DNA from: Bifidobacterium polysaccharolyticum
Lineage (GTDB): Bacteria > Actinomycetota > Actinomycetes > Actinomycetales > Bifidobacteriaceae
Length of the DNA: 64,000 nt
Assembly: GCF_016101585.1 (NCBI RefSeq)
Contig: NZ_JACFQG010000001.1
Coordinates: 558,001 to 622,000 of the forward strand
Direction of reading: 5' to 3'
Under the pieces are notes generated by a model. It made no database searches. It saw only the letters and a list, made by a program, of their open reading frames with translations, and had not been told where the DNA came from. Each line of letters opens with the position of its first letter. The first letter of the stretch is position 1. Positions 37,054 through 41,299 of this stretch are shown here, piece after piece. The position numbers were made by a program, and so were the translations under genes.

Positions 37054-38580
37054 TCAGCCCTGCCACCGGTCGGCCAGAGCGGACAGGCCGGACATGTGCG
37101 AGCCCTTGAGCAGGACAAGATTCTTCCGGTCCGAATGCTTGGCGCACAGACGGCGGACCATCTGGTCAGCCTGGTCAGCGTCCTGAGCAAAGAGTACCCG
37201 CATGGCCCCCGGCTGATCATCGCTCGGATCAGACGGGCCGCCGGCACCACGGACCAGGGCCTGGACCAGACCGTCCATCTGCTGATTCCGGCAACCCACT
37301 GCGACCAATGCATCAATGTCCTGACGACGGCAATAGGCACCGATCTCCTGGTGCAGCTGCTCCCCTCGATCGCCGAGCTCGAGCATGACTCCTAAGACCG
37401 CTATCCGATAGACCGGGCCATCGAATCCCCTCCAGGCAGCCAGGGCATCCAGACCTGCCCGCACGGAGTCGGGATTGGCGTTGAAGGAATCATCGATCAG
37501 AGTGAAGGAGGCACCCGGCAACTGGACCGAAGACACGGCCATCCGATGCGGGCTGATCCGCTGCTGTCGACCGAGCTCATCGGCGATACGCTCTGCATCC
37601 AAACCCAGGGCGTGGGCCACCGTGGCGGCAGCCAGGGCGTTCATGACATTGTGTCGTCCCGGGATGCCCAGACGAAGCCGAACCGGCTGCTGGCCACACA
37701 GGCGCAGCTCGAAGGTCGGCCTGTCCAGGCTGTCACTGTCCAAGTAGCGAGCCGAACCATCCAGGTCGCGGTCCTGCCCGCTGTCCTCAGTGGCCAAGCC
37801 AAACCGCAGAACAGGCCCAGAGGCCAGATCGGCCATGGCCGCCACCCGGGAATCGTCTGCATTGAGCACGGCGGTCCCACCCGGCACCAAACCTTGCACG
37901 ATCTCGCTCTTGGCTTGGGCGATGCGCTCCACGGAGCCGAATTCACCCAGGTGGGCCACCCCCACCTTGAGGACCAGGGCCATGTCCGGAGGAACCATCC
38001 GGGTAAGGCTTGCTATCTCGCCCACGTGATTGGCACCCATCTCCGCCACAAGGTAGCGGGTGTCCGGCCCGACCTCCAAGGCAGTCAGAGGAAGACCGAT
38101 CTCATTGTTGAAAGACCCGACCGGAGCCACCACAGAACCCAACAGGGCCAGCAGGGAAGCCAGCAGATCCTTGGTCGTGGTCTTGCCGACAGAACCGGTG
38201 ATGCCGATGACCGTGAAGGGGCCTGAGTCCTTGCGCCGACGGTCTATGTTGGCCCGTGCCAGCAGCCCCAGGGCAGCAACCGTATCGTCCACAAGAATCT
38301 GCGGCAGGTCAGCGCCCGGAACGAGGTGATCGACCAAGGCCGCGCGGCAGCCCTTGGCCCCCAGGCCGGGAACATAGTCATGCCCGTCCACGTGCTCGCC
38401 CTTGATGGCTATGAAGAGCCCATCGGCTTCCACCTGCCGGGAGTCCGTCACCACCCGCATGCGCACAGACCTGCGATCGGGTTCGCGACCAGGACCGGCC
38501 TCGACCAGCCGACCGTGCACATATTCGACGACCTCTTCCAGGGTCATGGGCATGGACCCGGCCCCTACAGACTGACTCAT
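37054..38580 (-). CDS. murF: UDP-MurNAc-tripeptide--D-Ala-D-Ala ligase
   Basis: 508 residues. An N-terminal Mur domain (VVTDSRQVEADGLFIAIKGE, DGHDYV) precedes the ATP loop VIGITGSVGKTTTKDLLASL and, in the C-terminal domain, LIDDSFNANPDSVRAGLDAL. This completes the UDP-MurNAc-pentapeptide. ATG at 38580 has GAGG 5 bases before it. The gene follows the MurE-like gene by 9 bases. Confidence 0.95.
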   Translation of the reverse strand: MSQSVGAGSMPMTLEEVVEYVHGRLVEAGPGREPDRRSVRMRVVTDSRQVEADGLFIAIKGEHVDGHDYVPGLGAKGCRAALVDHLVPGADLPQILVDDTVAALGLLARANIDRRRKDSGPFTVIGITGSVGKTTTKDLLASLLALLGSVVAPVGSFNNEIGLPLTALEVGPDTRYLVAEMGANHVGEIASLTRMVPPDMALVLKVGVAHLGEFGSVERIAQAKSEIVQGLVPGGTAVLNADDSRVAAMADLASGPVLRFGLATEDSGQDRDLDGSARYLDSDSLDRPTFELRLCGQQPVRLRLGIPGRHNVMNALAAATVAHALGLDAERIADELGRQQRISPHRMAVSSVQLPGASFTLIDDSFNANPDSVRAGLDALAAWRGFDGPVYRIAVLGVMLELGDRGEQLHQEIGAYCRRQDIDALVAVGCRNQQMDGLVQALVRGAGGPSDPSDDQPGAMRVLFAQDADQADQMVRRLCAKHSDRKNLVLLKGSHMSGLSALADRWQG

Positions 38581-38589
38581 CCTCACCTC

Positions 38590-39471
38590 TCAGGACATTT
38601 CACGGGAGACACGCAGGGCGCTCCTGATGTTGTTGCGTTTGACGCCGGCGGCCATGGTCATGGCGATGCACAGGGACAGGTCGTCACTTTCTGCGTCTGC
38701 GGGCAGGGACTGGCGGGCCAGTCCGTCTGATTCCTCGTTGCGCCGGGCCACGATGGTATGCCCGCCCAGGTTGAACCCATATCGGCGGGCCTTGGAAATC
38801 AGCCGCAAGTGTCGCATATCGCGGGTGGAGCCCTCCTGGGCGCCCAGGGCCACCACATCCAGGTCCACCGCCTGCAGGGCATCCTTGGCCAGGGTCTGTT
38901 CATCCACGGAGATGACTACAGCGGCCGCCCCGTCCTCCAGCGTAATGGACAGACTGCGCTGCACATCGAACATGCTCAGGGGATATTCGAGGTCCAACCG
39001 GCGATCCAGCGAATACGAGCCCTTGGCACTGAGAATGCCGACGGGATTGCCCAACACGTGCAGGAAGTCGGCCAGGAGATCCACCTGGTCCTGCACCTGG
39101 GAACCGACCAAGGCGAAGACAGCCAGGGCTCCCGAAGGATCCCCTGCGGCATTGGCCAGCAGCTGGCCCATCTGCCAGGGGTGCATGGTGCCGAAGAGCA
39201 GGGGTATGCGGGCTCGTCCCACCTCTTGGCGGGCCGAAGTCGGCAGCAGGGCTGCATAGGCCCCACGGCGCTCGGCCTCCTCGATCATGCCCTGGTCCAC
39301 CTGCTGGTCTGCAGGCACGTACAGGCTGCCGGGGCGCACTGAGGGCAGGTCGTCCACCAATGAGGTAACCGTGACTGGTTCAGCGAAGTCAGGGACCAGG
39401 GTCAACCCGTAGCGCCCTTTGAGCTGCCCCAGGGTCAACCGTCGGGAGATTGATTCACTCAGCGCGCTCAT
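38590..39471 (-). CDS. MurE-like protein lacking the ATP-binding loop (probable pseudoenzyme)
   Basis: 293 residues in the position normally held by murE, between ftsI and murF. Residues about 30-110 resemble the MurE substrate domain (VTVTSLVDDLPSVRPGSLYV, ERRGAYAALLP, then IPLLFGTMHPWQMGQLLANA with GDPS). Where MurE has GTNGKTT, this protein reads ALVGSQVQDQVDLL, so no Lys-Thr ATP loop. The central fold seems partly kept (KGSYSLDRRLDLEYPLSMFD), but the C-terminal ligase domain with its DNPR motif is absent. The frame is clean and tightly spaced with its neighbours (9 bases to murF, 46 from ftsI), so it appears maintained. A real MurE must be encoded elsewhere. A scaffolding or regulatory role is possible. 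Confidence 0.65.
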   Translation of the reverse strand: MSALSESISRRLTLGQLKGRYGLTLVPDFAEPVTVTSLVDDLPSVRPGSLYVPADQQVDQGMIEEAERRGAYAALLPTSARQEVGRARIPLLFGTMHPWQMGQLLANAAGDPSGALAVFALVGSQVQDQVDLLADFLHVLGNPVGILSAKGSYSLDRRLDLEYPLSMFDVQRSLSITLEDGAAAVVISVDEQTLAKDALQAVDLDVVALGAQEGSTRDMRHLRLISKARRYGFNLGGHTIVARRNEESDGLARQSLPADAESDDLSLCIAMTMAAGVKRNNIRSALRVSREMS

Positions 39472-39517: not shown

Positions 39518-41299
39518 TCACCATGTTACCGGGATAGCATCGGTCCTTGGCTGCGACGCGGGTACCTGGTATTTCTGCATAAGGAATTCACCGATCTGGG
39601 CAAAGATGGGCCCGGCGGTCATACTGCCGAAAACCCCATCGCTACTGTGAGGGTTCTTCAGCGCCACAGTGACCACAAAATGGGGGTCGTCGGCGGGCAG
39701 GATCCCCACCCAGTCGCTGATGATGCCGCCCAGGTGACCCGAGCTGTCAGCCACCTCGGCGGTTCCGGTCTTGGAAGCCACCCGATAGCCTTCCACCTTG
39801 GCCGTCTTCTCGTACTTCTCGGCCACCGATTCCATGCCGTTCATGACCGCAGCCGCAACCTTCTCATCCACGACCCTGACTTGATTGGCTTTGACCGCGC
39901 CCTGCCCGCGGATGATGGTCTGGTCGGACCGGACCCCCTTGTTGGCCAGGGTGGCGACAGCATTGGTCAACTGAACGGCGTTGGTGGCATAGCCTTGGCC
40001 GAACAGAACCGTGTTACGGGTGCGGCGGTCCCAGGTCTGAGGCGTGGTCAGCAGGCCCTTGGACTCCCCTGGCAGGCCCAGGGCCGAGGCCTGGCCGATG
40101 CCGAAACGGGTCAGATAGTCGTAACGCTTCTGATCAGAGTAGCGATCCGCGGCCATGATCATGCCCACGTTAGAGGAGTTCTGCAGAATGCCGGCAAGAG
40201 TCCAGTGCTCAGCGGGATGGTAGAAGGCGTCCTTGTACTGCTGGTTGTCCACGGTGATGTGGTCGGGCACGGTGAAGCGGTCGCTCATGGAGTGGACCTG
40301 CTCCTGAAGCATGCCTGCAGCAGAGATGGTCTTGCCTATGGAGCCGGGCTCGAAGGTCTCCGCCACCGCCCGTGAGGAGTTGACCTTGGCTTGGTCGCTA
40401 CCCGCCTGGTAATCGTCGGTGTCGGCCAGGGCCACGATCTCGTTGGTGCGGGTGTCCTGAACCACCGCCAGGCCCCAGTCCGCATGGTAGCGCTGGCAGC
40501 CTGACTTGAGGGCCTGACGGACGTACCAGAGCACGTCCTGATCAATGGTCAGGGTCACGTCCTTGCCGTTGACCGGATTGCGCTGACGGGTCACGGTTCC
40601 CGGGATCTCCTGGCCCAGCATTCCCTGCTGATAGACCGTATAGCCGTCAGTGCCGGTCAGCCGCCGATTTTCCATCTGCTCGATCCCGGCCACGCCCTTG
40701 CCGCTGTCGTCGATGCCCCCGATCAATGCCCCCATCAGATCCGCATGCGGATAGGTGCGTTCACTGCTCAGCTCGGCCGTGATGATCCCCTGCAACCCGA
40801 GCTTGTCAATAGCGCGCTTGGCCTCGGGAGTCACCCGCTTGGCCAGGACCACATATCTTCCAGGGATGCTGAGCTTGCCACCCAGCTCCATGGCGTTCAT
40901 CCCCAGGGCCGGCGCCAGGAGGCGGGCCACGCCGGCAGCACCGTCGGCGCCCACTGGATGACCCTTGATACTGTGGCAGTCGCTGCCTGTGCGCTTGGTG
41001 CAGTTGATAGGTATGAAGGAAGCCGCAGCCTCGGGGTCACCAATGATGTTGTAACGCTCCAGGCTCTGGGCCAGCACCCGGCCATTGACATCCAGAATGC
41101 GGCCGCGCTGGGCCTTGATGGTGTGCGGCACGGTGCGACTTGCCGCAGCGGCCTGGGCTATGGACCTTCCATCGAAGAGCTGGATGTAGGCCAGCTTGCC
41201 CAGGGCCAACGCAGCTACCACGATCAGGATCAGGCCTACAGACAACGAACGCTTGCAGAAGGAGATGTGCCAAGAACCCTTGGTTCCCTTGCGGCTCAT
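39518..41299 (-). CDS. ftsI: Septal peptidoglycan transpeptidase FtsI (class B PBP)
   Basis: 593 residues. One N-terminal membrane helix (LILIVVAALALGKLAYI), a PBP-dimer domain (AQRGRILDVNGRVLAQSLE), and a transpeptidase domain with SxxK in EPGSIGKTI near residue 320, SxN in SSNVG near 375, and KTGTAE near 512. It cross-links septal peptidoglycan with FtsW. Its ATG overlaps the ftsL-like stop by 4 bases. Confidence 0.93.
   Translation of the reverse strand: MSRKGTKGSWHISFCKRSLSVGLILIVVAALALGKLAYIQLFDGRSIAQAAAASRTVPHTIKAQRGRILDVNGRVLAQSLERYNIIGDPEAAASFIPINCTKRTGSDCHSIKGHPVGADGAAGVARLLAPALGMNAMELGGKLSIPGRYVVLAKRVTPEAKRAIDKLGLQGIITAELSSERTYPHADLMGALIGGIDDSGKGVAGIEQMENRRLTGTDGYTVYQQGMLGQEIPGTVTRQRNPVNGKDVTLTIDQDVLWYVRQALKSGCQRYHADWGLAVVQDTRTNEIVALADTDDYQAGSDQAKVNSSRAVAETFEPGSIGKTISAAGMLQEQVHSMSDRFTVPDHITVDNQQYKDAFYHPAEHWTLAGILQNSSNVGMIMAADRYSDQKRYDYLTRFGIGQASALGLPGESKGLLTTPQTWDRRTRNTVLFGQGYATNAVQLTNAVATLANKGVRSDQTIIRGQGAVKANQVRVVDEKVAAAVMNGMESVAEKYEKTAKVEGYRVASKTGTAEVADSSGHLGGIISDWVGILPADDPHFVVTVALKNPHSSDGVFGSMTAGPIFAQIGEFLMQKYQVPASQPRTDAIPVTW

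Follow-up and report, generated by a model that had tools for sequence, protein, structure and literature searches.

The 64,000-nucleotide stretch of Bifidobacterium polysaccharolyticum DNA analysed here (the window) carries a dcw cluster in which, in the order of transcription, mraZ, rsmH, ftsL and ftsI are followed by a gene for a MurE-derived pseudoenzyme and then by murF, mraY, murD, an FtsW-family gene, a MurG-family gene, murC and an FtsQ-family gene; the FtsW, MurG and FtsQ family assignments correspond to matches below the curated cut-offs. The pseudoenzyme gene (38590..39471, minus strand) has an ATG start and an intact frame, and it encodes a protein of 293 residues that matches MurE profiles and is conserved family-wide. 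Upstream of it lies ftsI (39518..41299, minus strand), whose product has Pfam transpeptidase and PBP dimerisation domains, and murF (37054..38586, minus strand), which encodes a complete enzyme, adjoins it downstream. The start of murF, chosen by eye, is probably the ATG at 38580, preceded by GAGAGGTGAGG, and not the GTG that had been listed for it at 38586. The loci related to the window in a locus search came from Bifidobacterium species of the B. asteroides group.

Residues 119 to 130 of the pseudoenzyme (FALVGSQVQDQV; 39082..39117, minus strand) occupy the former site of the ATP loop in the alignment with Mycobacterium tuberculosis MurE. Two new motifs follow. LHxLGNP, at residues 137 to 143 (39043..39063, minus strand), was gained in 67 of 68 aligned family members, and H.LGNP occurs in none of the 17 full-length MurE proteins compared. 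The second motif, E-D/E-G at residues 179 to 181 (38929..38937, minus strand), has E179 and G181 in all 68 members and D180 in 63. The C-terminal segment, residues 263 to 293 (38593..38685, minus strand), has unchanged amino acids across 13 close genomes and may represent the helix that closes the central domain of MurE; when the C-terminal 79 residues were compared with the end of that domain, they fell best at the expected place, though not significantly (hhalign probability 1.3, E 0.039). The 68 aligned proteins come from searches of the genomes of the genus and the family, with duplicates and related-locus copies left out, and measure 280 to 413 residues, with start sites approximated by a script as the nearest Met.

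Position and ancestry of the pseudoenzyme

The earlier note on this DNA had placed a MurE-like protein in the murE slot of the cluster, and both elements of that description hold. In the 68 loci, murF is always the next gene downstream, at a projected distance of -73 to +127 bases, and ftsI is the next gene upstream in 63. A stricter, frame-based count found both neighbours in 62 of the 68, the misses being five loci of genus g12 and one frame artefact. Long frames in G090 (976 residues) and G098 (657 residues) raised the possibility of a fusion with FtsI or MurF, which was discarded as the neighbours are in other frames. In 10 of 12 outgroup loci, ftsI and murF flank a full-length MurE; the exceptions are L096, with murF only, and L092, which is another MurE. 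All 110 genomes searched from the order's other families had a MurE match above the cut-off, and among the family members examined the pseudoenzyme locus never contained a full-length MurE. Because the gene is beside murF in every case, the neighbourhood alone cannot separate partnership from inherited gene order.

A phmmer search of the PDB with the single protein aligned residues 31 to 218 with residues 58 to 247 of M. tuberculosis MurE (E 2.9e-4). With a profile of 27 family members, the meso-DAP-adding MurE of M. tuberculosis (2wtz) was the top match (E 1.3e-15), its N-terminal domain and the first half of its central domain aligning with the pseudoenzyme. The plastid protein PAP11 came second (E 2.2e-15), and far lower scores were obtained with E. 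coli MurF (7.3e-5) and the lysine-type MurE structures 4bub (8.4e-5) and 4c12 (3.1e-4). In profile-profile comparisons by hhalign, the family matched 12 MurE proteins from other families of the order with a probability of 99.0% (E 8.3e-18), MurF with 94.2% (E 1.1e-7) and five MurE proteins of Bifidobacteriaceae with a GTKGKT loop with 92.8% (E 4e-7), a contrast that is indicative, given small template sets of unequal depth (12 versus 5 sequences). The pseudoenzyme differs from these two relatives, with which it shares the superfamily: MurF has the Mur fold and is encoded next door but is a complete enzyme, and the GTKGKT MurE is full-length, has an intact ATP loop and is encoded elsewhere, both matching the profile more weakly than the outgroup MurE.

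The pseudoenzyme alone scored 17.5 bits against TIGR01085 (cut-off 257.3), a Pfam scan detected no Mur domain in it, and at an E value of 0.1 a Mur domain was found in 0 of 27 family members. At an E value of 0.01, the MurE/MurF model matched 24 of the 27 and the murE subfamily model 16. As Pfam finds no Mur domain, the kinship is visible only with MurE-specific models and profiles. The sequence profiles point to a MurE fold. AlphaFold2, run with 11 near-identical sequences, gave a mean pLDDT of 37.3 and a pTM of 0.26. When MurE types and the family are placed in one tree, the family stands apart on a long branch and is not nested within the outgroup MurE; descent from a meso-DAP-type MurE therefore rests on the profiles and on the position of the gene.

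Lost catalytic motifs and conserved residues

The earlier note had reported that the ATP loop was replaced and the C-terminal ligase domain gone, and the comparison bore it out on both counts. In the phmmer alignment, GSQVQDQV faces the GTSGKTTT of M. tuberculosis MurE, and GK[TS] is found in none of the 68 aligned members. Aligned together with 12 outgroup MurE proteins, 6 of the 68 have Lys at the P-loop column, and none has Thr at either of the next two Thr columns. The carbamylated lysine and the DHLDFH region of MurE are lost, the column of that lysine being Lys in a single member; the SSHA motif is missing from the family, and the C-terminal ligase domain with its DNPR-type motif is absent, the conserved columns from reference position 345 onward being occupied by gaps or stray tail residues. 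Relative to 2wtz, the pseudoenzyme thus lacks the ATP loop, the carbamylated lysine and the C-terminal domain. Judged by every motif tested, the family is catalytically dead. The family has kept the N-terminal domain and the front portion of the central domain; it has lost the ATP loop, the region of the carboxylated lysine and the C-terminal domain.

The note had also suggested that the protein could bind UDP-MurNAc precursors. The alignment lends no support to binding in the manner of MurE: at the columns that presumably contact UDP-MurNAc in MurE, the reference residue is found in 2 (S39), 0 (H57), 5 (T164), 0 (T165), 2 (S191), 7 (S192) and 0 (R199) of the 68 members. Reference columns of apparently structural importance persist: G45, G69, P89, P111 and G182 in all 68, A70 in 66, A65 in 65, V207 in 64 and G145 in 62. 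Loss of the ligand motifs, retention of the fold residues, new invariant motifs and a low dN/dS, reported below, together fit a protein-protein function.

Distribution, selection and the full-length MurE

The gene is present in all 27 genomes of the genus and in 177 of 189 genomes of the family, including all 161 with a completeness of at least 90% and a contamination of at most 5%. No internal stops were counted among the matches listed in the genus and family searches. Pooled over 13 close genomes, dN/dS was 0.059 for the pseudoenzyme gene versus 0.126 for murF and 0.110 for ftsI (both partial), values to be read as estimates rather than as a statistical test, since the pairs are non-independent. 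Three segments spanning residues 111 to 262 gave values of 0.020 to 0.076. Having lost its ATP site and its last domain and yet changing more slowly than its working neighbours, the protein probably has a non-enzymatic job. The earlier view of a dead Mur homologue under selection is thus upheld, the frame being intact, the motifs lost and dN/dS low. A recent truncation of a full murE still carried by relatives, which the note had named as one outcome that would contradict it, or a decaying pseudogene, is ruled out within the family by the family-wide presence, the dN/dS of 0.059 and the lengths of the 68 members. Among viral contigs, 30 stretches fit a pattern and none encodes a relative.

In the region 38500-38690 of the window, synonymous change is reduced: the last 31 codons of the gene have a dS of 0.128 versus 0.321 overall, and the conservation of the DNA runs on into the start of murF, beyond the needs of a ribosome-binding site.

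The 12 family genomes without a match are all less than 90% complete, and a profile search of those 12 was also negative. In six of them (one of g4, one of g16 and four of g10), ftsI abuts murF, leaving no room for the gene; in three others (two of g4, and g7), murF is separate from ftsI. Only a divergent Mur ligase was found in G037 and G165, and only a weak match in G162, where the absence probably reflects incompleteness, as the two other genomes of its genus, g8, have the gene. In a MurF tree, a single clade (support 0.88) unites all 72 sequences from genomes that carry the gene, and eight sequences from gene-less genomes fall outside it; the support of the family node is 0.50. The absence of the gene from basal lineages indicates that MurF can do without the pseudoenzyme in another setting.

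A true MurE had been expected elsewhere in the genome, and one was found. The host genome (G000) encodes six Mur-ligase central domains, among them a full-length MurE of 572 residues with a GTKGKTT loop (L002, 985-2703, equivalent to G000:C5 538807-540525), which lies about 17.5 kb ahead of the start of the window. Scanned from ORF residue 81, it scored 695 bits against NF001129 (cut-off 762), 341 against NF010628 (536) and 237 against TIGR01085 (257), below every curated cut-off yet matched along its whole length. NF010628, the L-lysine ligase model, which also picks up ordinary Mur ligases, had matches in 189 of 189 family genomes at an E value of 0.001, none over the cut-off. The GTKGKT protein probably does the ligase work in the host cell.

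The ATP loop of MurE reads GTDGKT in nine proteins from g4, g10 and g16, and GTKGKT in ten from gene-bearing genera, a split that counts as one evolutionary contrast and not as nineteen independent points. The MurE of basal lineages (G036-G039, G166-G169 and G188) is of the GTDGKT type, with a DDPH- or DDPR-like sequence or another at the place of DNPR. In G045, G067, G091, G112, G160 and others, two matches to MurE models of the GTKGKT class are adjacent on one strand. Another locus of the host genome, L004 (G000:C7:389839), encodes a Mur-ligase-domain protein and a short downstream ORF, by eye a MurT/GatD-like pair.

Proposed role of the pseudoenzyme

The gene is almost certainly the old MurE gene of the dcw cluster turned into one for a conserved non-catalytic protein. 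The conversion would have occurred in the ancestor of most Bifidobacteriaceae, the GTKGKT MurE having taken over the ligase work. The pseudoenzyme would then be a module for protein-protein contacts at the cytoplasmic stage, where peptidoglycan precursors are made; by docking, most likely on MurF or the replacement MurE, it would help to hand on the tripeptide intermediate or to coordinate the ligases. We put this docking mechanism forward as tentative, somewhat short of an even chance. MurF would be the most likely partner, as its gene directly follows that of the pseudoenzyme in each of the 68 loci, with little space or an overlap between them; the next candidate would be the replacement MurE. 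The combined statement, a displaced ancestral MurE that has acquired a non-catalytic partner role, is in our judgement evenly poised. Slightly more speculative than the docking mechanism is its strictest form, in which the displaced MurE would have become an obligatory non-catalytic subunit of a cytoplasmic Mur-ligase complex, with LHxLGNP and EDG as docking motif, when the enzyme for the third stem-peptide residue changed in that ancestor.

Alternatively, the nucleotide pocket might have been rebuilt around LHxLGNP and EDG to bind another small molecule, making the protein a ligand sensor that regulates the Mur pathway. LHxLGNP lies just past the former ATP-loop helix and EDG ahead of the lost SSHA, and both are near-invariant amid about 30% identity; LHxLGNP could, however, just as well form a binding surface or belong to the protein core, and we regard a sensor as unlikely.

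More improbable is a function outside cell-wall synthesis, for which plant PAP11 offers a precedent: it is a subunit of the plastid RNA polymerase, according to excerpts of the source (PMC9456514), and as the second-best PDB match it shows that the MurE fold can be recruited. PAP11 resembles the pseudoenzyme in being MurE-like and serves as a subunit of a complex (same excerpts), but it has 768 residues, keeps GTNGKT in the alignment and acts in an unrelated cell context. Moreover, it matches because it is itself a MurE relative, and the pseudoenzyme gene is never away from murF in the 68 loci.

Also improbable, to a marginally greater degree, is a septal scaffold linking FtsI with the Mur ligases, which the earlier note had proposed and which the prevalence of ftsI as upstream neighbour would favour. 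This idea is weakened by genus g12 (G174-G180), whose seven genomes of 0.6 to 0.9 Mb all retain the gene, with no match to FtsI at an E value of 0.001 in any of the seven. Matches to the FtsW/RodA family are also fewer, with one in six g12 genomes and none in G176 (87% complete) versus two in G000, G182, G166 and G036, and the single class B PBP examined in g12 (G180) has the PbpA dimerisation domain. Conversely, ftsI and murF persist without the gene in basal lineages. A loss of all penicillin-binding proteins from g12 was considered as well and is ruled out by PF00905 matches, which correspond to two PBPs in six genomes and one in G176. Each of the reduced g12 genomes (L166, L167) has one class A PBP, to which six of the seven add a second PBP and a single FtsW/RodA-family protein.

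The gene order of the cluster in G174 and G180 is rsmH, the pseudoenzyme gene, murF, mraY and, by Pfam, genes for murD-like and murC-like ligases; a MurG-like ORF between the latter two was recognised by eye in G180. This order indicates that, when ftsL, ftsI and ftsW departed from the cluster, the gene remained together with those for the cytoplasmic precursor steps. Its persistence beside them without FtsI argues for a role at the cytoplasmic stage, where the docking module would act.

The sequence might also be a relic, kept only as DNA that carries signals for murF such as its start region or translational coupling. The low third-position variation in the last 31 codons and the conserved murF start agree with this reading, but the dN/dS values of the whole gene (0.059) and of residues 111 to 262 (0.020 to 0.076), and the lack of stops among the matches listed, largely exclude it; we give it very little weight. 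Least credible of all, despite the MurE ancestry, is that the protein still catalyses or binds as MurE with unusual residues, as the ATP loop, the carbamylated lysine, SSHA and the C-terminal domain are missing and a full MurE is encoded elsewhere.

In a literature search covering sources other than subscription journals, we recognised no report on the pseudoenzyme gene. In termite-associated Bifidobacteriaceae, peptidoglycan synthesis is conserved and, among them, the diaminopimelate pathway occurs only in Ancillula, as stated in passages of PMC11707648, which make no mention of the gene. According to excerpts of another study, B. breve remains viable with a transposon in Bbr_0246, which bears the annotation murE and could be either gene (PMC5449479). 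Annotation guided by position and weak similarity may give genes for the pseudoenzyme the name murE, even though the MurE that does the work is encoded at another locus.

Mur ligases are core enzymes and antibiotic targets. A role for them in the assembly of ligase complexes has long been proposed and is hard to test with active enzymes. The slower change of a dead Mur homologue, compared with the adjacent murF and ftsI, suggests that Mur proteins do more than catalysis, for instance by taking part in such assembly, and bifidobacteria would offer a case in which catalysis and non-catalytic function have been separated naturally. Were the pseudoenzyme indeed an obligatory subunit of a Mur-ligase complex, gut bifidobacteria and their relatives would possess a lineage-specific component of wall synthesis.
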